Shown here: piece by piece, positions 24,250-35,856 of the stretch | Numbering within the stretch: position 1 is the first letter of the stretch | Layout: each line of letters begins with the position of its first letter | Source: a gamma proteobacterium symbiont of Stewartia floridana | GTDB taxonomy: Bacteria > Pseudomonadota > Gammaproteobacteria > Chromatiales > Chromatiaceae | DNA: 64,000 bases | Assembly: GCA_003676145.1 (NCBI GenBank) | Contig: NAUB01000019.1 | Location: 62,001 to 126,000, forward strand | Direction: 5' to 3' | The notes under the pieces: generated by a model | What the model was told of the DNA's origin: nothing | Database searches by the model: none | What the model saw: only the letters and a program-made list of their open reading frames with translations | Translations under genes and position numbers: made by a program

Positions 24250-24822
24250 TCAGCTGGTGATTTCAGCACGCACGATGTAGCGAAGAGGCCCCCCAGGCAT
24301 CAGGGCATCAAAAGGGAAGCAGGTGATCAGCAACAGCTCCTGAGGGCCTGTCAGGGGGATCTGCCAACCGGCCCGCTGATCCACCACCAGATGTTCAACC
24401 ACCCGATAATCCATCTCTCTGCCATCCCCCCCCTGAAGCTTGAGAATATCGCCGATCTGCAGATCCTTGAGAAAGCGAAAATGGGTATCCCGATGGCCGG
24501 AGACGAAACTGCGCCCCACCCCACCGGGCAGAGTACTCTGTTCCGCCCAGCCTGGGCCAAACGCCAGGGTTGCGCCACTGTCGCCACTCAGCACCAGACG
24601 ACTCACCCCGAGGCGGGGTGAGACGAGCCGGGCTACCGGCCAGGTGTCGGCCCAGGGCCAGGGAGTGACCTGGCTCTGGCCGTTCAGCGTGCGCTGCCAG
24701 GCAACAGTGATCAACCCTTCGGCAAGCCAGGCCTTGGCCTCGATCCATAGCCCGTTTGCCAGCATCCCGCCACCGAGCAGCGCCATCAGCAAGGCCAATG
24801 TCTGAGCCACTCTCAAACCCAT
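24250..24822 (-). CDS. class GN sortase
   Basis: This 190-residue transpeptidase of the Gram-negative (class GN) sortase group cuts an LPxT-like signal and joins the protein to an envelope acceptor. It has an N-terminal membrane anchor (LALLMALLGGGMLANGLW). The sortase catalytic His lies in SFVSGHRDTHFRFL (about residue 111), the Cys in LLLITCFPFDAL (about 169) and the Arg in GGPLRYIVRAE. It overlaps the end of the preceding target-protein gene by 10 bases. Together with PdsO, target, PdsR and PdsS it forms the known proteobacterial dedicated sortase system, in which one sortase serves one substrate. Confidence 0.95.
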   Translation of the reverse strand: MGLRVAQTLALLMALLGGGMLANGLWIEAKAWLAEGLITVAWQRTLNGQSQVTPWPWADTWPVARLVSPRLGVSRLVLSGDSGATLAFGPGWAEQSTLPGGVGRSFVSGHRDTHFRFLKDLQIGDILKLQGGDGREMDYRVVEHLVVDQRAGWQIPLTGPQELLLITCFPFDALMPGGPLRYIVRAEITS

Positions 24823-26900
24823 CGGCCAGTGATCCTCGGAGCGAATCGCAGGGTTATCCAGGCCAGACCCAACAGAGCGATACCGAGCAACAGATTGAGT
24901 GGTGCCCCGGTAGCCGTCCTGGGCAGTTGCCCGAATACCGCCTGAGCAGACCAGCCAGCCGGCAGACTGACCGGTAGATCGCCACCCTTCAACGACTCAT
25001 GCAGAGGACGCGTGGGGGTCTTCTCAACGGCCACCAGGCTGGTATAGGGTGAGATCAGTTGATGCTCCAAGGCGATTCTCAGAACCGCTTCACGCCGCTG
25101 TTGAGGCGTGGTGGTGCTGGTCGAGGCCATGATCGATTTGATCCGTTGCCTGGCCCACAGGGCGTGAACGCCGGTACGCTGAGTCTCTCCCTGATTAAGA
25201 TCGACCAGCCGTTTCCAGAGCGCACCATCCCGCTCACCGACAACCCGCAGTTGACCATCCAGGTCGCTCCCTTTGAGCGCCAGTAGCAGTGGCTCACCAA
25301 GATAGAGATCGGGAAGGCGTCCCGGCTCTACATCCAACTCTCCGCGACCCTGCCAGTCGAGCCGAATATCCCTCATGCTGGGGTTTTCAAGCTTTGCAAA
25401 GAGTGCCTGCATGGTGCTTGAGACCTCGGATATATCCCCAATGTAGCTGAACGAACCACGGCCAAAATCGGCGGCGCGTTGCATGAAGTGGCTGTTCGGC
25501 GCCGATCCGATACCGACAGTGAAGAGCCGGCTCTCACCCAGCTTCTGCTGAATCAGGCTAAACAGCTGCTGCTCATTGCCCACACTGCCATCGGTGAGAA
25601 AGACGATCTGGCGCAGGCGCTCCAGCTCTGCCTGCTGGTTCAGCGCCAGCTCGAGGGCCGGCATCATCTCGGTTCCACCATCGGCACGCAGCCGATCGAT
25701 GAAAGCCAACGCCCGCTGCTGATTGTTGTTGGTTGCGGATTGAGGGTTGGAGAAAAGGGATTCACTGCGATTGTTGAAGGCGATCAGATTGAACCGGTCA
25801 TTGGGCTGCAGACGGCTGACGGCCAGTCTCAGGGCGGCTTTGGCCTGCGCCATGGATGGCCCGCTCATCGACCCGGAGCGATCGATAATGAACACCAGCT
25901 CCCTGGAGAGCACTTCAGCGGCTGTCGCTGACGCCGGCGGCATCAGCATCAACAGGGCGTAGTCCTGACCCTGCCACTGCTCACGAAACAGGGCCAGTTC
26001 CGGCTCGCTACCGACCTTCGGTCGCCAGTTGATTACGATATCCCGATCGGCCTGCACCTCACCATCCGCCAGTTGCAGATGAACCACGCCCGGCTGTTTC
26101 CGCTCCTGCACCATCCGGTGGTAACGGCTGACCACCTGAGAAAGCGGCATACCCGCATCGATCCGTACCTCCATCGACAGGGGATTGATCAATCCGGCGC
26201 CTTCAGCAATCACCGGCGGTGATATGGAAGCCGCCTCATCCAACGACAGCTGTTTCGGGATATAACGAGGGGCAACCACCATCGGGAAACGCAGCTCGAA
26301 CTCCTCTCCGGAGTAGTGCACGGTTTGCTGAAATTCGATCGTTACCCTGACCTGCTCACCCGGTGCAATATTGGTTGCCGAGAGGGTGAAGATATTCGGC
26401 CTCTGCTGAGACAGCAGACTGGCCTTTTTGCCAGCCTCTCTGGCCTGCTTGAAGATCCGTTTGGCGGCCGCCTTCTCCTCGATCACCCCTTCGATGCGCC
26501 GGTCACCGATCTCCATCCTCATCCGCTCCACGGCACTCCCTTCGGCCAGGGGAAACTGGTAGTTCCCCTCCATCCAGTGCTGACTGGGGTTGCTGAACAC
26601 CTGCTCCACTTTGACCCAGGCGAGCATGCCGGCAACATCGATCTCAACTCGGGTATTGAGCAGTGGTGCCATCTCGATTCGATGGCCATTCAGGCTCCTC
26701 AGTTGCAGCCCGGCAGCGGTTTCACCGGTCGGAACCGCCTGTGCACTACTCCAGCCGAACACCATCAGGATCAGTAGCACACCACCGGAGAGTCCGGTCA
26801 TCACCGCTGCCAGCAGGGTAAACAGCATATCGATGATAAAGGCGCGGCTGAATTGAGCCCTGAGCGGGGTTTTAAGATCAGTTTCTGTGTTTACACCCAT
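24813..26900 (-). CDS. marine-proteobacterial sortase target protein (VIT + VWA)
   Basis: This 695-residue exported protein is the dedicated substrate of the adjacent class GN sortase. It begins with a basic stretch and a membrane/signal segment (about residues 25-55). A vault inter-alpha-trypsin (VIT) domain follows at about 65-195 (NTRVEIDVAGMLAWVKVEQVFSN), then a VWA domain at about 335-500 with metal site DRSGSMSGPS. The C-terminus carries the sorting signal: LPRTATG, a hydrophobic helix (LLLGIALLGLAWITL) and a basic end. The motif is LPRTA rather than the commoner LPxTG, with Gly two residues later. Inter-alpha-trypsin-like proteins bind ligands through the VWA metal site, so an adhesive role at the surface is plausible. 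Confidence 0.93.
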   Translation of the reverse strand: MGVNTETDLKTPLRAQFSRAFIIDMLFTLLAAVMTGLSGGVLLILMVFGWSSAQAVPTGETAAGLQLRSLNGHRIEMAPLLNTRVEIDVAGMLAWVKVEQVFSNPSQHWMEGNYQFPLAEGSAVERMRMEIGDRRIEGVIEEKAAAKRIFKQAREAGKKASLLSQQRPNIFTLSATNIAPGEQVRVTIEFQQTVHYSGEEFELRFPMVVAPRYIPKQLSLDEAASISPPVIAEGAGLINPLSMEVRIDAGMPLSQVVSRYHRMVQERKQPGVVHLQLADGEVQADRDIVINWRPKVGSEPELALFREQWQGQDYALLMLMPPASATAAEVLSRELVFIIDRSGSMSGPSMAQAKAALRLAVSRLQPNDRFNLIAFNNRSESLFSNPQSATNNNQQRALAFIDRLRADGGTEMMPALELALNQQAELERLRQIVFLTDGSVGNEQQLFSLIQQKLGESRLFTVGIGSAPNSHFMQRAADFGRGSFSYIGDISEVSSTMQALFAKLENPSMRDIRLDWQGRGELDVEPGRLPDLYLGEPLLLALKGSDLDGQLRVVGERDGALWKRLVDLNQGETQRTGVHALWARQRIKSIMASTSTTTPQQRREAVLRIALEHQLISPYTSLVAVEKTPTRPLHESLKGGDLPVSLPAGWSAQAVFGQLPRTATGAPLNLLLGIALLGLAWITLRFAPRITGRWV

Positions 26901-27039
26901 TGCGACCTCCCATTGGCACTTTTCTCCCCTTCGCGGCCCGCCGGGGAGCCGCTGCTACCCGGCGATAGCTGAAGCTCAGGATCTGTTCCGGCGAGCCATA
27001 GACAAAGGCTTCGCTGATTGGCTGAAGCCTGCCTTTCAT
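26878..27039 (-). CDS. possible 53-residue protein between pdsO and the sortase target
   Basis: An ATG at 27039 overlaps the pdsO stop as ATGA, and the frame runs 53 codons to a stop inside the start of the target gene (26878). The product starts MKGRLQPISEAFVYGSPEQI, is strongly basic in its second half (SYRRVAAAPRRAAKGRK) and has no membrane segment. The overlap geometry at both ends is what a translationally coupled gene would show, but composition in the second half is poor and the ribosome site for the target gene (GGGAGGTCGC) lies inside it. It could instead be an accident of a 136-base spacer. I do not recognise a family. Confidence 0.3.
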   Translation of the reverse strand: MKGRLQPISEAFVYGSPEQILSFSYRRVAAAPRRAAKGRKVPMGGRNGCKHRN

Positions 27040-27722
27040 GAGGCATCTCCATGCAGCAGGGTGAGTTGCACCATGCGGTCAAAGGCGAGTCCTTCCACAT
27101 CGGTCAACGGATAGATTGCGGCCGACTCCCCCTGATAGCGCAGCTTGATGCGTTCGGATGAGAGACCCGCATCGATCAGCATGCCTGCCACGGCCTCGGC
27201 ACGCTCGCGGCTCAGCTGATGATTGAACGCCTCTGTACCTCGCTGGTCGGCACCGGCTTCAACCAGCAGTTGAAACTGGGGGAAGGCTTTGAGCATCTCT
27301 GCCAGGGAGTTCAGCTGTTCGACCATCTTCGGTTCAATCTGACTGCTGCCGGTACGGAATCCCAGACAGAAACTGAACCCCTCCTGCAGTGCAAGTAACG
27401 AGCTATCCTGCTGTTGCTGATGGAACTGTTGCTGATGGGAATGGGCCTGAGCGAGGAGGAAATCTGACTCAGAGTGGGGCTCAGGAGGGGCTTTTGCGGC
27501 CAACTCCAGGTTCTGATTCTCGGCATGTAGATCGCCGATTACCGCACCGCTGGTAAAACCGAGAACCGCGCCCGGCGGTCCAGCCAGCAGACCACCGGCC
27601 AGCATACCGAGCAGCGAGCCGTAGAAGCCCTCTTTCGCTGCCGTTTCAACCGCCTCCTGGGCAGACACAGGCGCCTGCAGCAGCAGACCGGCAAGGGATA
27701 CGATGATAAGATGTTTTTTCAT
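27036..27722 (-). CDS. pdsO: sortase-associated OmpA-family protein
   Basis: This 228-residue protein has a signal peptide ending VSA-QE, a glycine-rich segment (GFYGSLLGMLAGGLLAGPPGAVLGFTSGAVIGD, about residues 33-65) like the glycine zippers of outer-membrane lipoproteins, and a Gln-rich coiled region. A C-terminal OmpA/MotB peptidoglycan-binding domain spans about 130-225 (LVEAGADQRGTEAFNHQLSRERAEAV). It matches the PdsO component of the dedicated sortase system and is the first gene of the operon with the target and sortase. It may tether the system to the cell wall or form part of the acceptor site; the precise role is not known. Confidence 0.92.
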   Translation of the reverse strand: MKKHLIIVSLAGLLLQAPVSAQEAVETAAKEGFYGSLLGMLAGGLLAGPPGAVLGFTSGAVIGDLHAENQNLELAAKAPPEPHSESDFLLAQAHSHQQQFHQQQQDSSLLALQEGFSFCLGFRTGSSQIEPKMVEQLNSLAEMLKAFPQFQLLVEAGADQRGTEAFNHQLSRERAEAVAGMLIDAGLSSERIKLRYQGESAAIYPLTDVEGLAFDRMVQLTLLHGDAS

Positions 27723-28126
27723 TTTGCTAACTCCTGGTTATTGAACCAGCGCACCATCCATGGTGTTCATTGGCACTCCGTAGCGGCGCCGGAATTCTCT
27801 GTTTTCCGGGAGTAATTACACGCCAGAGAGATGGCCGGCATGCAGCCAAATTGGGGCGATCGCGTGGCGAAATGTGGCAGAAACATGGCAGCAGTGAAAA
27901 GCTTGCCTACAATAGACAGCGGAGCTGACAGCCATTACAAAGAGATTGGAGGGATCGACGCACAGCTTGCATGTCTGAGAAATGGCATGCAACTGCGCTC
28001 GCTGAAATCCACATTGGAACAACAGTTTCATTAGCTGTTTAAAAAACCATAAACTAATTATGGACTAAAGTTACAGAAGGAGAATGCCGACACGGAATGG
28101 CATATGCAAGGAACTGCCCTAAATAA
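27723..28126. other. divergent intergenic region between pdsO and the porin operon
   Basis: About 400 bases separating pdsO (minus) from the plus-strand three-gene operon. A small hairpin CCGGAA/TTCCGG lies at 27789-27809 in the pdsO leader. A 67-codon frame at 27831-28034 has mediocre composition and I do not call it. Promoters for both directions should lie here, possibly bound by PdsR; I could not find a convincing repeat pair. Confidence 0.45.
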
Positions 28127-28546
28127 ATGACAACCAACTATCGCGCATTTGCAGTCGGTTTGCTGCTCTGCCTATCGGGTTCAGCAAATTCCGTCGACCT
28201 GGTGATCAATCGGGACATCGATTACGAGAGTCTTTCCCGCAATACCCTGCGTTCCATTTTCAGTATGCGTATGACCCAGTGGCCGAATGGCAAGCCGATA
28301 CGGGTCTTCGTCATGGGGGACAAAACTTCACAACACGCCGACTTCAGTAAACATGTACTTGGGGTATTCCCCCACCAGCTGCGTCGAGCCTGGAATCGGC
28401 AGATCTTCTCCGGCATGGGGCAGGCCCCCATGAAGGTCAATACGGAAGCAGAGATGCTCGAGCAGATTGAAAACACACCTGGCGCTATCGGCTATCTATC
28501 CGAGGACAATATCAATGAGCGTGTACGGAAGCTCTCCGTTGAATAA
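28127..28546 (+). CDS. small PstS-like periplasmic substrate-binding protein
   Basis: This 139-residue protein has a signal peptide (AFAVGLLLCLSGSANS) and corresponds to one half of a PstS-like phosphate-binding domain. The VDLVINRDIDYESLSRNTLRSIFSMRMTQWPNGKPIRVFVMGD segment, the HADFSKHVLG motif and the terminal NTPGAIGYLSEDNIN are typical of short PstS-like proteins. These stand alone, without ABC permeases, often beside porins and signalling proteins. Phosphate binding is uncertain because only part of the usual fold is present. Its last 32 bases overlap the next gene, so the two are co-translated. It probably hands a signal or ligand to the downstream barrel and GGDEF-EAL protein. Confidence 0.82.
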   Translation: MTTNYRAFAVGLLLCLSGSANSVDLVINRDIDYESLSRNTLRSIFSMRMTQWPNGKPIRVFVMGDKTSQHADFSKHVLGVFPHQLRRAWNRQIFSGMGQAPMKVNTEAEMLEQIENTPGAIGYLSEDNINERVRKLSVE

Positions 28547-29723
28547 GTGCTGGGCCATCAGGCTGCTGGCACTGTTGCTGTTTTCAGCAAACGGATTATC
28601 GGCCTCTCAACTTGACCAGTTGGACGGGGCACTGCAGGTGCATGGCTTCCTGACCCAGGCTTACGTGAAGACGACAGAGAACAGCTTTTTCGGTGACAGC
28701 CAGGATGGCAGTTGGGATTTCCGCGAGCTTGGGATCAACAGCTCCTATCGGTTTACACCAAGCACCATGGCATCGATCCAACTCCTCTCCCGTCGTGCAG
28801 GAGAGATGTACGACGGTTCTCTGGACCTGGATTACGCCCAGCTCGACTCCACCATCTATACCGCGGATGCCAATCGTGTCGGCATCATCGTAGGACGTTA
28901 CAAGAACCCATTCGGCCTCTACAACGACACCCGGGATGTGGCGGCAACCCGCCCTGGTATCTTCATGCCACAAGCAATCTACTGGGACCGGGTGAGAAAC
29001 ATGGTGCTGTCGAATGACGGCGCTCAACTGTTTGGCGACTTGCAGGTCGATGAACACCGTTTTTCCATCCGCTTGATCGGAGGAAAAACCCCAATCGATG
29101 AAAATGTGGAAAAGTCCTATCTCAATCCCCTGCTCGATCCTGAAATGGAACAGGATGGACTGACCCTGGGTGGCCGTCTGCTCTACGAGTGGGATGGCGG
29201 GCGCTTCAATCTTGCCTACAGCAGCGCCCAGTTAACCCTCGATGCGGAAACCAGTCTGTTGCCGGACGGTGAGGTAGAGATCGATTACCGGGTCCTTTCG
29301 GCACAATACAACAGCGGTCGCTGGAGCCTGACCTTGGAGTATATGCAGGAGCCATTGAACTACTCCGGCTTTGGCGGATTGATGGATGCCGGCGACACGA
29401 CCCTGGACGGCTACTACCTGCAAGGCACCTATCGTTTGCGGGACGATCTGGAACTTTTTGCCCGCTATGAGGAGAGCCACTACGACAAGCAGGATAAACG
29501 GGGAGAAAAGACCGCTCAGCGCCTGGGCCTGGAAGCGCACAATTTCTATAGCAGGGTCTCCACGCTGGGGCTACTCTGGGAGGTAACGGAAGGATTGATC
29601 GTACGAAGTGAATTCAGTCAGGTGGATGGCACGATTTTTCTCTCCAACCTGGAGAACCCACCGCCTCAAATGCGCTCACGCAACTGGAACCTCTTCTCAC
29701 TGCTCGTCTCCTACAGTTTTTGA
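28515..29723 (+). CDS. outer-membrane beta-barrel (porin-like) protein
   Basis: This 402-residue protein has a signal peptide (WAIRLLALLLFSANGLSAS). Repeated amphipathic beta strands follow with alternating aromatic and polar residues (GFLTQAYVKTTENSFFGD, ELGINSSYRFTPSTMASIQLLSRRAGEMYDG, RVGIIVGRYKNPFGLYNDTRD), and the C-terminus ends in Phe (LFSLLVSYSF), as expected of an outer-membrane barrel. It resembles porin-like proteins of unknown specificity. The ATG at 28515 lies inside the end of the PstS-like gene; an earlier in-frame ATG at 28467 would add 16 residues before the signal. Its stop overlaps the start of the GGDEF-EAL gene. Confidence 0.85.
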   Translation: MSVYGSSPLNKCWAIRLLALLLFSANGLSASQLDQLDGALQVHGFLTQAYVKTTENSFFGDSQDGSWDFRELGINSSYRFTPSTMASIQLLSRRAGEMYDGSLDLDYAQLDSTIYTADANRVGIIVGRYKNPFGLYNDTRDVAATRPGIFMPQAIYWDRVRNMVLSNDGAQLFGDLQVDEHRFSIRLIGGKTPIDENVEKSYLNPLLDPEMEQDGLTLGGRLLYEWDGGRFNLAYSSAQLTLDAETSLLPDGEVEIDYRVLSAQYNSGRWSLTLEYMQEPLNYSGFGGLMDAGDTTLDGYYLQGTYRLRDDLELFARYEESHYDKQDKRGEKTAQRLGLEAHNFYSRVSTLGLLWEVTEGLIVRSEFSQVDGTIFLSNLENPPPQMRSRNWNLFSLLVSYSF

Positions 29724-32662
29724 GCAAGTCGATGCCGCAACAGCACCTGAATGGCATAGTTGAGGAACACCAGGAAGAGAAACAGCCCTACTTCCTCAGT
29801 CTGAAGTGGAAGGTCATGCTGCTGTTCAGTCTGGTGGTGCTGATCATGAATGCGGGCCTGGCAGGCATGGGCTATCTGCAGCAGCTGAAGTTGTTCGAGA
29901 CCTATCAACAACAGATCCATGAACAGCAGAACAGGCAGGTAAAGTCGTTACTCGATTCCAGCTTCTACCGTCTGGAACAGATTGCACTGATGATTCCCTC
30001 CCTGGCGGAAGCCGCCAGCCAGGATACAACCGCTCCACTGAGTGAAAAACTGCAGACCTTCTTTCTGTACAGTGCGGTCACCCTGGAGATGGAGTGGGGG
30101 CTTGAAGAGGCCGCCTTCTACAGTAAAGAAAACCGTTTGGAGTTTAATTGGCAGACCGGCAGCCTAGGCGCCCCCTTCACTGAGCTGGTCAACTCGGTCA
30201 ACCGGCTGGAGACGCCTCTGACCATGCTGCAATGTAATATCCGTTGCAGCCAGTATGTGGCCACCCCTCTGCTGTATAAGGGTGAGCACGCCGGAGTGAT
30301 CCTGGTGGGACGATCCATCGCCGACTTGATCATCGAATTCAATGAACTGGCAAAGACCGATATCGCGGTCATCAGCCATATCGATCAGCCCTCCCGAGTA
30401 GACCACCACTCCCGTTTTTTAGGCGATTGGCAACGTTACATCAGCGCCTCCAGCAATCTGAAGAGACTCCTGCCTCTGTTCCAGGATACGGCGGAAAAAG
30501 TTGATTTGAAGACCCTGATCGATGAGGGACACACCGCCAGTTACAACGGCAAGGAGTACACCTTCAATCTGGTTCCGGCCAGCAGTGATGCCTCTGTGCT
30601 ATCAGCGGATTTCATTCTGGTGAGTAATATCACGCCGGTGGTACAACAGATCCGTCAGGCAACCACCCAATCGGTCGTGATCGGCATCCTCGGCTTCATC
30701 CTCTCAGAACTGATGCTGGCTGCGGTCCTCTGGAATCCGATGAAACGTCTGCTGATGATCTCTGACAGCCTGCCTCTGCTGGCAAAAAACGCCTTCGAGC
30801 AGGTACGCCAAACTCTCAGCCTGAAACACCACGACTGGTATCAGGATGAGATCGACATTGCCAGTGACTCCGCGATTGAATTGACCTATACACTGGAGAG
30901 TCTCAACGAAGAGATCGCCCACAATACCAACAGCCTGATCAAACGCAGTGAAGAGCTGGCACGGGAGCGGGATTTCCTCAGTACCATCATGAACAGCGCA
31001 CAGGTGATTATCCTGACACAGGATATGGATGGCGCCATTCTGACCATGAATACCGAGGGGTGTAAGTTTATCGGGATCAACGATTATCGTCGGGGTAGCG
31101 GCTACTTCAGCGATCTCTACATGAATGCGGAGGTCGCCAATGAGATGTTACCGGTGATGAACGGGTTGAGGCAGGGCATGATCCATGTCTACCAGCATGA
31201 TGCATCAGCCTTCTCATCGGATGGGCAGAACAAAACCATATCCTGGGTCCACTCCAACCTGATCGAAAATCCGGTTGCCGGCATACCGGTGGTGCTCTCA
31301 ATCGGACTCGATATCACCGACCGGGAACTGGCGGAACAGCGCTTGGCCTGGCTGGCCAATCACGACCCACTCACCGAGCTCAACAACCGTCGTTACTTCC
31401 AGACGGAATTCGAAAAGATCATCACACTGGCAGAGCGCTACAACCACTCCAGCGCACTGCTGTTTTTCGATCTGGATCAGTTCAAGTACATCAACGACTC
31501 CAGCGGCCACCACACCGGTGATGCGATGTTGCAGATCGTGGCGCGCAAACTGCGTGAGATTACCCGCTCAACCGACCTCATTGCACGGCTTGGTGGGGAC
31601 GAGTTTGCGATCGTCATACCGGAAGCCGATATCCCTGCCGCCACCCGCTATGCGGACAAGATCCTCAGCGAACTGAAGAAGATCACGATCCCACTGAAGG
31701 GGCACAGCCACCGGGTCTCCGCCAGTATCGGTATCGTTGCCTATCCAAACCACGGCAGTAATGCCAACGATCTGCTCTCGAATGCGGATCTCGCCATGTA
31801 TCAGGCCAAGGAGTCGGGCCGCGACCAGTGGCATCTCTTCTCCAGCAGTGAACAGGCACGGGAACAGATGAGTGCCCGGGCCACCTGGAAGGACAAGATC
31901 GAACGGGCGCTCTCCGAGGATGGCTTCATACTCTACTTCCAACCGATCCTGGAGATCAGCAGCGGCATCATCTCCCACTACGAGGTACTGATCAGGATGG
32001 TGGAGAAGGATGGTTCGATTGCCATGCCCGGCGAGTTCATCCCGGTTGCCGAGCGAACCGGACTGATCCACCAGATCAATCGCTATGTGCTACGCGCATC
32101 CGTCGCCAAGCTGGCCAGCCTGAACGAACAGGATATCGATATCACCCTGTCGATCAACCTGTCCGGCCGGGTGATCGATGACCCGGAACTGCTGCCGCAA
32201 CTGACCCACCTGGTCAACAGCAGCGGTATCGATCCGACCAGACTGGTATTCGAATTGACCGAGACCGCTGCATTGGCGGACGTGAATGCCGCCGAGCGGC
32301 TGATGAAAGAGCTGCAAGCGATTGGCTGCCGCTTTGCATTGGACGATTTCGGCGTCGGCTTCTCATCCTTCTACTATCTGCGTGAACTGCCGTTGGACAT
32401 CGTCAAGATCGACGGCTCCTTCATCAGGCAACTACCCACCAATTCCATGGACCAGGTCTTCGTCAAGGCGCTGACCGAGATGGCCACCGCACTGGGCAAG
32501 GATACGGTCGCCGAATTTGTCGAAGATGAAGCAACCCTGACACAACTGAAAGAGATCGGTGTGATCTATGCGCAGGGGTACTACATCGGTAGACCATCTC
32601 CGGAAATCCCGGTCAAATCCCTCCCTATACAAAAACGACAGATAGAGACACTGCAAAGTTGA
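29720..32662 (+). CDS. membrane GGDEF-EAL protein with periplasmic sensor and PAS
   Basis: This 980-residue protein starts with TTG overlapping the barrel stop (TTGA); an ATG at 29732 is an alternative. Two membrane segments (about residues 32-52 and 317-337) enclose a periplasmic domain of about 265 residues that probably senses a ligand (cache-like layout). A coiled stretch, a PAS domain (about 415-535), a GGDEF domain with intact RLGGDEF (about 622) and an EAL domain follow. The EAL signature is EVL (HYEVLIRM, about 752), a variant seen in some active enzymes; DDFGVGFSSFYYL and the later acidic residues are kept. It is the last gene of a coupled trio, suggesting that the periplasmic binding protein and barrel feed a signal into c-di-GMP turnover. 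Confidence 0.92.
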   Translation: MSKSMPQQHLNGIVEEHQEEKQPYFLSLKWKVMLLFSLVVLIMNAGLAGMGYLQQLKLFETYQQQIHEQQNRQVKSLLDSSFYRLEQIALMIPSLAEAASQDTTAPLSEKLQTFFLYSAVTLEMEWGLEEAAFYSKENRLEFNWQTGSLGAPFTELVNSVNRLETPLTMLQCNIRCSQYVATPLLYKGEHAGVILVGRSIADLIIEFNELAKTDIAVISHIDQPSRVDHHSRFLGDWQRYISASSNLKRLLPLFQDTAEKVDLKTLIDEGHTASYNGKEYTFNLVPASSDASVLSADFILVSNITPVVQQIRQATTQSVVIGILGFILSELMLAAVLWNPMKRLLMISDSLPLLAKNAFEQVRQTLSLKHHDWYQDEIDIASDSAIELTYTLESLNEEIAHNTNSLIKRSEELARERDFLSTIMNSAQVIILTQDMDGAILTMNTEGCKFIGINDYRRGSGYFSDLYMNAEVANEMLPVMNGLRQGMIHVYQHDASAFSSDGQNKTISWVHSNLIENPVAGIPVVLSIGLDITDRELAEQRLAWLANHDPLTELNNRRYFQTEFEKIITLAERYNHSSALLFFDLDQFKYINDSSGHHTGDAMLQIVARKLREITRSTDLIARLGGDEFAIVIPEADIPAATRYADKILSELKKITIPLKGHSHRVSASIGIVAYPNHGSNANDLLSNADLAMYQAKESGRDQWHLFSSSEQAREQMSARATWKDKIERALSEDGFILYFQPILEISSGIISHYEVLIRMVEKDGSIAMPGEFIPVAERTGLIHQINRYVLRASVAKLASLNEQDIDITLSINLSGRVIDDPELLPQLTHLVNSSGIDPTRLVFELTETAALADVNAAERLMKELQAIGCRFALDDFGVGFSSFYYLRELPLDIVKIDGSFIRQLPTNSMDQVFVKALTEMATALGKDTVAEFVEDEATLTQLKEIGVIYAQGYYIGRPSPEIPVKSLPIQKRQIETLQS

Positions 32663-32712
32663 AGCCGCATTTTTTCAGGCGTGGATGGTGGCCAATGATC
32701 TTATTGGTTTTG

Positions 32713-32894
32713 AGTCCGCAAATGAACGCAAATAAACGCTAATGGTTTTGCGGATGGGAATCAGTCTGGCGCATTTCAACCAAGCCGCAAATGGATGCCA
32801 ACTACCGGGAATAACCACCAATTACTCAGCAGTATATGATTCACTAATCAATTCATCCGCATAATTTGCGTTCATTCGCGTTCATTTGCGGACT
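32713..32894. repeat. dispersed inverted-repeat element, copy 3
   Basis: The left end reads AGTCCGCAAATGAACGCAAA and the right end GCGTTCATTTGCGGACT, in inverted orientation, enclosing about 140 bases with further CCGCAAATGGATGCC-type internal motifs. It lies between the GGDEF-EAL gene and pdsR, exactly where the inserted operon joins the second half of the sortase locus. Confidence 0.87.
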
Positions 32895-32988
32895 TTTTAT
32901 AAAAACGATTGGCCACCAAACCAACCAGATGCCGGGTTTTGCAATTCACGAAACAGCTCAAGCAATAGTGAGAATCCCGCTCTGCAGG

Positions 32989-32994
32989 TATAAT
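32989..32994 (+). promoter_or_regulatory. possible -10 element of the pdsRS operon
   Basis: A consensus TATAAT stands 66 bases before the GTG start of pdsR. No good -35 hexamer is found at 16-18 bases upstream (TAGTGA is the nearest), so the promoter may need an activator, or the match may be fortuitous. Confidence 0.35.
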
Positions 32995-33060
32995 CAAACA
33001 CCTGAACCCGAGCGTGGATCGATAGATTCAACCTAACCCAATAAAGAACCAGACTGAACT

Positions 33061-33753
33061 GTGGCCAAAAGAGAAATTGCCATCATCGAGGACGAGCAGG
33101 CGATCCGTGACAACACGATCGATTTTCTGAACCGCCAGGGTTACAGCGTCAAGGGTTATGCCAGCCGGCCTGAGGCGTTAGCAGCCTTCAGCAGTAAACT
33201 TCCCGATCTGGTGATTCTGGACATCGGTCTGGAGGATGATGTGGATGGGGGATTTGAACTCTGCCGGGAGCTGCGCAGTCGCTCCAGCACTCTGCCGATC
33301 ATCTTTCTAACAGCCCGGGACAGCGATTTCGATAGCGTTGCCGGACTGCGCCTTGGTGCTGACGACTACATCAGCAAGGAGACCAGTCTGCCCCACCTGG
33401 TAGCTCGGATCGCCGCCCTGTTTCGACGCATCGAGGCGATGCAGCAACCCCAAACACCGCAACAACCACTGCAACGCAGTGATCTGCGAATCGACGTGGA
33501 CCGGTTGATGGCTGAGTGGCAGGGTACCCCACTCCATCTGACGGTTACCGAATTCTGGATGCTGCACGCCCTGGTTCGCCATCCGGGCCATGTACGCAGC
33601 CGGGACAAGCTGATGGAGGAGGCTCATATCTACGTCGACAGCAGCAGTGTCTCCACCCACATCAAACGCATTCGACGTAAATTCCTCGATGTCGATCCTG
33701 AGTTTGTCCATATCGATACGGTCTACGGTGCGGGATACCGCTGGAAACCCTGA
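33061..33753 (+). CDS. pdsR: dedicated sortase system response regulator
   Basis: This 230-residue OmpR-type regulator starts with GTG. The receiver domain has the acidic pocket (IIEDEQAIRDN), the phospho-acceptor Asp in LVILDIGLEDD (about residue 58), the Thr in IIFLTARDSD and the Lys in DDYISKETSL. A winged-helix DNA-binding domain follows (about 135-228), with VSTHIKRIRRKF as recognition helix and IDTVYGAGYRW at the end. Length and order match the regulator of the proteobacterial dedicated sortase system. Three bases separate it from the kinase gene. Likely targets are the pdsO-target-sortase operon about 5 kb away and its own operon. Confidence 0.93.
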   Translation: MAKREIAIIEDEQAIRDNTIDFLNRQGYSVKGYASRPEALAAFSSKLPDLVILDIGLEDDVDGGFELCRELRSRSSTLPIIFLTARDSDFDSVAGLRLGADDYISKETSLPHLVARIAALFRRIEAMQQPQTPQQPLQRSDLRIDVDRLMAEWQGTPLHLTVTEFWMLHALVRHPGHVRSRDKLMEEAHIYVDSSSVSTHIKRIRRKFLDVDPEFVHIDTVYGAGYRWKP

Positions 33754-33756
33754 ACA

Positions 33757-35856
33757 GTGCAGACGGCTCCCGGCTTCCTTCGCACTCTACGCTTCAAGCT
33801 GCTGCTGGCCTCACTCACGCTGTTGCTGATTCCCTGGGCCGGTTATCAATATCTGCAGGGGATGGAGCAGACATTGAGAGAGGCGCAACAAAGGTTGTTG
33901 ATGAACCGGGCTGAAATCATCGCCAATCTGCTGGCTGTACAATCGGTGAAATGGCTTTCGCAGCAACCGGTCAATACAGAGATCACCCCCTCACTCTACG
34001 CCTTCCCGCTGAACACCCCTCCGGTAATCGATGGCTATGCGGATGAGTGGCTCAGGCTGAAGCCTCAGGCCGAGCACTTCAACGCCACTGGCTCACAGAA
34101 TCGGCAACTCGGCTTGGATTGGCTGGCCGGTTTCCATGGCAACAACCTCTATCTGCTGCTGGAGGTCGAGGATCAGCAACTGAACTACCCTCCCAATGAG
34201 CAGAACCTGGCCGCAGGCGACCATTTGATCGTGGCACTACCCGGTGACGGGGCTGACACCAGACAACTGCGAGTCGGTACACCAGCACCGGGCTGGGTAC
34301 ATGTTCAGGAGCAGGATAACGCCCAACCAATTGCAGGATTGTCCGGTGAGTGGCAGGAGACAGACACGGGCTATCGTGTCGAGTTGCGCCTGCCCCGCGA
34401 CCTGGCGGCAGGGAGAATCTCCATAGCGGTGATCGACTATGATCAGGCGGCGCAAAAGCCCGCAGTGAAACTCAGTACCTCCGGCCTGCAGCGCAACACC
34501 ACGCTTGCCTATCTCACCCTGCCCACTCCCGAGGTGGAGGGATTACTCGCTGGCCTGGCCGACAACAACCATCGCTATACACTGCTCAACCCTCAACGCC
34601 AGGTGATTGGCCGTCACGGAGCAGTCCGCACCGCAAGCCACAAGCTGGAGAGTCTGCCACAGCGTCTGATCTCCCTGATCCTGGGCGAGGAGCAAGCTGA
34701 ACCGTTCAGAGAGCGTGAAAGACTGGGCCGCCTGGATGGACCGGAGATTCGGCAGGCGCTCTCCGGGGAAGGTGCTGTCTATCGCTATCAGGCCGCGGGG
34801 ACCAATCTGACGATGCTCTCCAGCGCCTATCCAATCAGAGTGGACGGCAAGATCATCGCTGCTTTGGTGGTCGAGCAGAGCAGCCAGGAGATCTTGATAC
34901 TCCAGCAGAGTGCAATTGAGAATCTGCTACTGATCAGCCTGGGATTGTTCATTGTGACCGGCGGTAGCCTGCTCCTGCTGGCCACATCGATCACCCGCCG
35001 CATCACCCGCCTGAGTGGCAAATACCAGCAGGCCGTCAGTCCGGATGGCCGCTTACTCAAACCGATAACCACCTCGCGACAGAGAGACGAACTGGGTCAG
35101 CTCGATGCCAGCCTGAGTGCCGTATTGAAGCGGACCAAGGAGTACAGCCACTATCTTGAATCCATGGCCTCACGATTGGCTCACGAGTTTCGTACCCCAC
35201 TGAGTGTGATTCGATCCTCTCTGGAAAACCTGGAGGCGGAGATCGACTCGAATCCGCTGAGCGATGGACAGACCTCAGCGGCATTGGTCTATGCAAAGCG
35301 TGCCCAGGAGGGGACCCACAGACTGAACCAGATTTTGACCCGCCTGCGGGAAGCCACACGACTGGAGCAATCCCTGCAGCAGACCGAAGTGGTGGAGACC
35401 GACCTGACCATGCTGCTGAAAGGACTCTCACAGGGATACGCAGACAGTCATCAAACCATCCGATTCGAGACCCAACTGCCTGACGGACCGGTTATCAGCC
35501 AGATCTCAGCGGAGTTGATCAGTCAGGCACTGGATAAACTGATCAGCAACGCAGTGGATTTTCATCAGCCTGATACCCCGATACGGATTGAACTGCATCG
35601 ACACGGAGAAGATCGGGTGCGCATCGATGTGGTCAATCAGGGAGCCCGGCTGGATGAGAGGACACAACAAAATCTGTTCAAATCGATGCATAGCCGTCGC
35701 GCCTCATCCAGCGACCAGCAGCCCCATCTCGGCCTTGGGCTCTATCTGGTACGTTTGATTGCGGAGTTCCATCAAGGCAGGGTATCGGCGGAAAACCTTG
35801 CGGATGGGGTGTGCTTCAGTATGCAACTCCCCCTCAATCAGAAAACTGCAAAATGA
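33757..35856 (+). CDS. pdsS: dedicated sortase system histidine kinase
   Basis: This 699-residue membrane kinase starts with GTG directly after pdsR. It has one membrane helix (LLLASLTLLLIPWAGYQYL), a periplasmic region of about 350 residues, a second helix (LLLISLGLFIVTGGSLLLLA, about 390), a HAMP linker, a HisKA domain with the phospho-His in ASRLAHEFRTPLSVIRSSL (about 477) and an ATPase domain with N-box ISNAVDFH and GLGLYLVRLI. The periplasmic part contains PPVIDGYADEW...NNLYLLLEVEDQQL, which resembles a family 9 carbohydrate-binding (CBM9-like) module. This suggests that the kinase senses a glycan or other envelope ligand. It pairs with PdsR. Confidence 0.92.
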   Translation: MQTAPGFLRTLRFKLLLASLTLLLIPWAGYQYLQGMEQTLREAQQRLLMNRAEIIANLLAVQSVKWLSQQPVNTEITPSLYAFPLNTPPVIDGYADEWLRLKPQAEHFNATGSQNRQLGLDWLAGFHGNNLYLLLEVEDQQLNYPPNEQNLAAGDHLIVALPGDGADTRQLRVGTPAPGWVHVQEQDNAQPIAGLSGEWQETDTGYRVELRLPRDLAAGRISIAVIDYDQAAQKPAVKLSTSGLQRNTTLAYLTLPTPEVEGLLAGLADNNHRYTLLNPQRQVIGRHGAVRTASHKLESLPQRLISLILGEEQAEPFRERERLGRLDGPEIRQALSGEGAVYRYQAAGTNLTMLSSAYPIRVDGKIIAALVVEQSSQEILILQQSAIENLLLISLGLFIVTGGSLLLLATSITRRITRLSGKYQQAVSPDGRLLKPITTSRQRDELGQLDASLSAVLKRTKEYSHYLESMASRLAHEFRTPLSVIRSSLENLEAEIDSNPLSDGQTSAALVYAKRAQEGTHRLNQILTRLREATRLEQSLQQTEVVETDLTMLLKGLSQGYADSHQTIRFETQLPDGPVISQISAELISQALDKLISNAVDFHQPDTPIRIELHRHGEDRVRIDVVNQGARLDERTQQNLFKSMHSRRASSSDQQPHLGLGLYLVRLIAEFHQGRVSAENLADGVCFSMQLPLNQKTAK

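Follow-up and report, generated by a model that had tools for sequence, protein, structure and literature searches.

A c-di-GMP signalling operon between a candidate PdsR operator and pdsR in the dedicated sortase locus of Candidatus Thiodiazotropha

Why do the genes of a dedicated sortase system (PDS) in Candidatus Thiodiazotropha enclose an operon for cyclic di-GMP signalling? The locus lies in the window, the whole 64,000-nucleotide stretch of DNA that we analysed, which belongs to a 4.55-Mb Ca. Thiodiazotropha genome in 36 contigs. As judged from PdsR relatives with their flanks, the named organisms closest to it are Candidatus Thiodiazotropha taylori and 'RUGA', which we take to be symbionts of lucinid clams. 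A preliminary description of the locus had left two readings side by side, namely that three genes were inserted into the sortase locus or that they had joined the system functionally. We address both by gene order in relatives and by a candidate regulatory site within the locus.

A sortase locus with an operon in its gap

The genes are as the preliminary description had them, with open reading frames at the coordinates given below and with agreeing NCBIfam and Pfam identities. On the minus strand, a class GN sortase gene (24250-24822; TIGR03784, 192.7 bits against a cut-off of 158.25; PF04203) is accompanied by a VIT/VWA sortase target gene (24813-26900; TIGR03788, 734.8 against 551.65), whose product, on inspection of its sequence, ends in LPRTAT followed by a hydrophobic stretch and a basic end, and by the OmpA-like pdsO (27036-27722), for which TIGR03789 is the best NCBIfam match at 98.5 bits, under its cut-off of 152.2. 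On the plus strand lie the response regulator gene pdsR (33061-33753; TIGR03787, 359.3 against 335.7), with CreB and PhoB as the next-best NCBIfam matches of its product, and the histidine kinase gene pdsS (33757-35856), best matched by TIGR03785 under the cut-off (535.3 against 612.2). The window therefore shares with the proteobacterial dedicated sortase system the same five gene types in the same orientations, with pdsO-target-sortase divergent from pdsRS and an LPxT-type target adjoining its sortase. Two features set it apart. PdsO and PdsS score under the curated cut-offs of the system's models and are in that sense divergent, and pdsO and pdsR are not contiguous, the 5,338 bp (5.3 kb) that separate them being taken up largely by a signalling operon. 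A passage in PMC12114352, which cites another study for it, describes the PdsS of Shewanella algae as a sensor kinase associated with PdsO.

The gap between pdsO and pdsR is occupied by three plus-strand genes, hereafter the trio. The first (28127-28546) encodes a PstS-like periplasmic protein of 139 aa that aligns to PF12849 (PBP_like_2) over profile positions 96-187 of 267. Its predicted structure (model pLDDT 61) matches PstS folds with a best E of 9e-6, and the PstS-type matches in the PDB are 241-375 aa long; at half that size, the protein is not a full two-lobed PstS phosphate-binding protein. The second gene overlaps the first and encodes an outer-membrane porin-like barrel (28515-29723), with its start probably at ATG 28515 rather than TTG 28467, since stops lie just before the corresponding start in the relative L036. 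Its Porin_4 match is weak in the window, and Porin_4 and Porin_O_P matches at E up to 0.1 are found by Pfam in 9/9 relatives; a PDB sequence search with the barrel gave nothing credible, and its structure model (pLDDT 38) was useless. The third gene (29720-32662) encodes a dCache_3-GGDEF-EAL protein of 980 aa, identified by Pfam and by conserved motifs in alignment. Bifunctional GGDEF-EAL proteins carry GGDEF, RxxD and ExL motifs together with metal and catalytic residues. GGDEF and EVL are invariant in the 10 aligned rows, RSTD is kept in seven and replaced by RSTE or RTSD in the remaining three, and the window protein has the motifs expected of a predicted bifunctional enzyme.

In YfiBNR-type control, periplasmic and outer-membrane proteins act on a GGDEF enzyme. 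The trio resembles this arrangement in layout, in that a single operon encodes a periplasmic protein, an outer-membrane protein and an inner-membrane c-di-GMP protein; its components differ, being half a PstS, a barrel of porin type and a GGDEF-EAL protein with a dCache domain. The trio might act as an envelope or anion (phosphate-like) sensor, in which the periplasmic and outer-membrane parts would feed the dCache domain.

Distribution of the trio and of other cargo in the gap

Among the best 80 of 249 PdsR relatives with flanks, 12 are Thiodiazotropha and 68 form the outgroup. A GGDEF-EAL gene lies upstream of pdsR in all 12 Thiodiazotropha loci, and the whole trio is present in all nine with enough sequence. 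In the 68 outgroup loci, some of them incomplete stretches, no PstS or barrel match is found at pdsR, and pdsO or the target, where detected, is no more than about 0.9 kb from pdsR, a Glaciecola metagenome-assembled genome (L077) being the exception.

A survey of 210 genomes of the order (PdsR model at E up to 1e-70, barrel profile at E up to 1e-10) gave PdsR matches in 59 and barrel matches in 91. Within the 22 Thiodiazotropha genomes, PdsR and the barrel were each found in 20, both within about 5 kb in 16, and the barrel, where found, is single-copy and located at the PDS. Five of the exceptions (G125, G132, G129, G138 and G139) are limited by contig ends and the sixth, G141, is without PDS; G138 and G139 have no barrel match at all, and the GGDEF-EAL gene of G138 nonetheless stands beside pdsR. 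Since the trio is beside pdsR in 16 of 22 genomes and contig ends or PDS loss account for the other six, its insertion would date to the ancestor of the genus. A recent insertion was rejected on the same genus-wide conservation.

Outside the genus, the 188 genomes include 71 with the barrel, 39 with PdsR and 14 with both, adjacent in none of the 14. The preliminary description had named the presence of the trio elsewhere in most relatives as an argument against its reading; this holds in part, in that the barrel is carried by 71 of the 188 and stands beside pdsR in 0/12 judgeable out-of-genus genomes with both (in G030 and G044, pdsR is near a contig end). Within the genus the trio is at the PDS. 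Of the out-of-genus pairs that share a contig, the closest have 15 kb (G190) and 43 kb (G193) between them. All 12 order loci inspected outside the genus carry the trio as a complete three-gene operon, in varied contexts. Across a sample of 274 genomes of the class, the barrel (E up to 1e-20) occurs in 21, the window genome counted. The nine class loci read all have PstS next to the barrel, and a GGDEF-EAL gene accompanies the two in 7/9, once inverted. Free-standing outside the genus, the trio does not belong to the core of the dedicated sortase system. In genus g55, a parE-like gene, recognized by eye, precedes the free-standing trio (L130, L131), which is 15-43 kb from the PDS.

The genus g36 is the sister of Thiodiazotropha in a PdsR plus PdsS tree (support 1.0; 34/35 taxa, with 6/10 Thiodiazotropha loci). 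There, orf246 and orf236 lie beyond the sortase in 4/6 loci, as they do in Thiodiazotropha, the PDS is without the trio, and the trio is found far from it, at 426 kb in G077 and 1.09 Mb in G076. The earlier proposal of an insertion into the PDS locus is supported, since the trio forms an operon of its own in other members of the order and class and since the PDS of g36, with the shared flanking genes in 4/6 loci, is without it. A barrel tree (6/10 Thiodiazotropha loci plus 12 others) does not settle the origin of the trio, being compatible with a move within the ancestor as well as with arrival from outside. That the trio was instead an ancestral part of the PDS, lost from the locus in most lineages, is extremely improbable: its retention across one genus would fit, whereas none of the 68 outgroup loci, some of them incomplete, gives a PstS or barrel match and the trio stands apart in varied contexts in the order.

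One genome has kept the trio and lost its neighbours. In G141, which is 99% complete, the target has no match at E up to 1e-30 and no PdsR scores above the cut-off; the PDS genes are lost, and orf246 directly adjoins an intact trio (L135, contig 135). Its gene content indicates that the dedicated sortase genes were lost naturally while the trio stayed where it was, so that the trio can persist without the PDS.

The gap is not confined to Thiodiazotropha. In the order, 24 of the 39 out-of-genus PDS loci show pdsR plus pdsO or target with measurable gaps between matches, which are <0.8 kb in 10 loci, 1.0-2.0 kb in six and at least 4 kb in eight, six of these eight belonging to genus g39. A split locus is accordingly nothing odd in the order, and with gaps of at least 4 kb in 8/24 measurable loci, pdsO-pdsR contiguity is not a strict criterion of the system. 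Pfam searches of one locus per genus identify an HNH gene as gap cargo in g36, an SMC/AAA protein in g12, and, in g39 (L158, 3687-9535), an HTH-PBP protein, an sCache kinase, a sigma-54 regulator and MobB between pdsO and pdsR. The pdsO-pdsR gap is a general cargo site. In the Glaciecola genome L077 (7135-9992), different GGDEF-EAL and AIM24-domain genes occupy a 3.2-kb pdsO-pdsR gap, apparently an independent case.

Of the order's 39 PDS loci outside the genus, 6 have genes for c-di-GMP signalling, which in five cases, all from g55, lie beside the sortase. These 6 loci in about 607 kb compare with about 12 expected from the density of GGDEF matches in the window genome, a rough figure from one genome and another detection threshold; no enrichment is seen around the 39 loci, and a general association of c-di-GMP genes with the PDS is unsupported. 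The window genome (G000) itself has 90 GGDEF-domain matches in 4.55 Mb, which seems high for a symbiont. In g55, the GGDEF gene is convergent beside the sortase in 5/7 loci (L168-L170, L173 and L174), and three PDS loci of Burkholderiales (L070, L072 and L086) have a GGDEF-EAL match after pdsS.

A candidate PdsR operator facing the trio

Between pdsO and the trio, on the plus strand at 27872-27894, lies a direct repeat with an 11-bp period that we propose as a candidate PdsR operator. In a matrix scan it scores 21.9, the best of the 64 kb, with the next position at 7.3. TGTGGCNNAAANATGGNA has its single exact match in the 4.55-Mb window genome here; a similar pattern with two mismatches allowed finds six genome sites against one for a reversed control, and a looser genus-wide pattern, which matches in 22/22 genomes with many chance sites, shows no uniqueness.

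Related repeats precede pdsR in distant relatives. Within the 400 bp before pdsR, exact hexamer repeats of 11-bp period occur in 23/68 outgroup loci against a mean of 5.6 in single-base shuffles, TGGCAA being the repeated hexamer in 10 of the 68 (among the best 80 of 249 relatives), and TGGCA pairs with at most one mismatch occur in 28/68, the corresponding figures being 3% for shuffles and, with a slight undercount, about 5% for other stretches. An iterated 23-bp matrix, trained on the same outgroup loci, scores at least 17 upstream of pdsR in 59/68 of them (again from the best 80 of 249), with a maximum of 14.1 in 533 random stretches. A second matrix, counted from 29 Alteromonadales sites only, themselves picked with the full matrix, gives 11 of the 19 loci held out a higher score than any of 1,000 background stretches (maximum 13.6), in one case barely; the held-out loci without a site above background by this matrix are those of Marinobacter, Mangrovitalea, Burkholderiales and L039.

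Thiodiazotropha is in neither training set. A plus-strand site nevertheless lies between pdsO and the trio in 11/12 of its loci, with scores of 8.6-24.9, and G141 is the one without. In 2,000 random 400-bp stretches of Thiodiazotropha loci, the 99% value is 9.2 and the maximum 15.1; six of the 11 sites score above all random stretches, four (two near-identical pairs) lie at 0.5-0.7% and one is marginal. In the deeper branches of the genus, outside the window's clade, the sites score lower (8.6-18.4), and the one between pdsO and the trio is outscored in L032 and L034 by an unrelated site in another part of the locus. The operator is found in 0/13 trio-pdsR gaps (scores at most 1.8) and upstream of PstS in 0/12 free-standing trios (maximum 3.1). 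Beyond the genus, a site of at least 17 is present in only 11 of the order's 39 PDS loci, several of which are incomplete, and the six g36 loci score at most 13.2. In 7/8 wide-gap out-of-genus loci, six of the seven from one genus, the operator stands at the pdsO/target end, so that the cargo sits between operator and pdsR.

Operators of the PhoB/CreB type are pairs of half-sites spaced 11 bp, one of which overlaps the -35 region. The candidate PdsR operator has the same spacing, likewise with one half-site in a -35 region, and differs in its half-site, TGGCA. The portions of the literature available to us contained nothing on what PdsR binds, and we found no paper on Thiodiazotropha with sortase or c-di-GMP; the upstream direct repeat would appear to be new as a candidate PdsR operator. 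Being common to distant Gammaproteobacteria and having one strict match in the genome, it makes the PdsR regulon testable.

The site also has a promoter-like context. A -10-like TACAAT (27908-27913, plus strand) follows the second half-site, ATGGCA (27885-27890), by 17 bp and points at the trio, which places this half-site in the -35 position on the trio strand; the region has two promoter-like sites in 500 bp against 0.8 in shuffles. Half-site, 17-bp spacing and -10 recur in all four window-clade loci examined. Under a looser criterion (4 of 6 letters), a -10 at that spacing is present in 5/11 Thiodiazotropha loci, and in 1/7 outside the window's clade. For the outgroup, a -10-like hexamer stands on the pdsR side of the box at an offset of 33 bp in 36% of the 44 loci listed (of 68), all other offsets reaching 11% at most; in g39 such a hexamer lies 24 bp after the box in 5/5.

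Because the operator faces the trio and the trio-pdsR gap is without one, the trio seems to occupy the promoter slot that faces PdsR. We propose that in the Thiodiazotropha ancestor an autonomous signalling module came to lie between the PdsR operator and pdsR, that PdsR would bind the direct repeat and control pdsO-target-sortase leftward and the trio rightward, in the window's clade through TACAAT, and that the sortase two-component system would thereby tune the c-di-GMP enzyme. The chances of this reading seem to us evenly balanced, our confidence having been lowered by the patchiness of the operator in the order and its weakness in g36. If the operator does drive the trio, the sorting system and c-di-GMP signalling would be wired together in animal symbionts. 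The preliminary suggestion that the trio had joined the system functionally gains from the candidate operator facing it and loses from G141, which keeps the trio without the PDS.

That same genome fits a different account, in which the trio, having landed in an intergenic region that tolerates cargo, sits there by inertia, works autonomously and escapes control by PdsR, and the operator acts on the leftward pdsO-target-sortase operon only. Such an account, which we regard as a serious possibility while leaning against it, would also agree with the unrelated cargo of the same gap elsewhere (HNH nuclease, SMC/AAA, HTH-PBP with kinase and MobB) and with the abundance of GGDEF matches in the window genome; it sits poorly with an operator that runs toward the trio and whose second half-site, in the window's clade, stands where the -35 element belonging to the -10-like TACAAT would be, and with a gene order kept across Thiodiazotropha species whose trio proteins are only 63-77% identical to those of the window. 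The repeat could alternatively be the site of another regulator or part of the pdsO promoter, which we consider unlikely. An 11-bp direct-repeat period is typical of the OmpR/PhoB-type regulator family; the repeat has this period, precedes the gene of such a regulator in most of the outgroup loci, as counted above, and is missing upstream of the trio in G141, where the PDS is lost. A site for another factor would accord with the PDS loci of Marinobacter/Mangrovitalea and Burkholderiales that have no repeat (two aligned PdsR are 60-61% identical to the window's) and with its patchy occurrence in the order (11/39 loci).

Control of the trio by PdsR could be one instance of a wider pattern, in which the PDS intergenic region would be a regulatory slot with the operator fixed at the pdsO end and different signalling modules captured before pdsR, such as the c-di-GMP sensor operon in Thiodiazotropha and the HTH-PBP and kinase/sigma-54 regulator pair in g39. 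We hold this generalization only tentatively and rather doubt it; were it true, surface-protein sorting would directly control a c-di-GMP switch in clam symbionts.

The repeat and the region before pdsR

The stretch between the trio and pdsR contains a dispersed repeat (32713-32894) with 31-bp inverted arms that are 90% complementary. The window genome has 128 matches to it, both arms and strands counted, and both ends are paired in 16/20 copies read, 127-215 bp apart. The end motif (at most two mismatches) occurs 96 times in the window genome, is present in 18/22 Thiodiazotropha genomes at 0 to 96 per genome, and gives a single two-mismatch match in 34 sampled other relatives; an Rfam search of 20000-42000 gave no match. 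Like MITEs and other short inverted-repeat elements, the repeat is short, has inverted ends and is multicopy, and on terminal inverted repeats, shortness and copy number it is MITE-like. At the orthologous gap, L026 shares the window's copy, L027 has one whose interior differs, L029 has a different sequence and L028 has no repeat, and in other Thiodiazotropha the trio-pdsR gap is 47-153 bp, shorter than any copy. The repeat was therefore rejected as the cause of the split locus, to which the preliminary description had tied it, and is an unrelated genus-specific element.

The RNA of the repeat has a predicted folding energy of -66.7 kcal/mol (z -6.2), and CTTTTTATAA comes directly after it; given this strong fold, the hairpin and the adjoining CTTTTTATAA could terminate trio transcripts before pdsR. 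Downstream, TATAAT at 32989-32994 (plus strand), kept in the window and its four closest relatives, is a possible separate pdsRS promoter; it has no -35 partner, and a consensus promoter scan lists no promoter here. Where the trio-pdsR gap is short (47-153 bp), pdsRS would probably form the distal end of the trio transcript, and in the window's clade the hairpin repeat and TATAAT may give pdsRS a transcript of its own. The ends of the repeat are built of units of about 10 bp (GCGTTCATTT).
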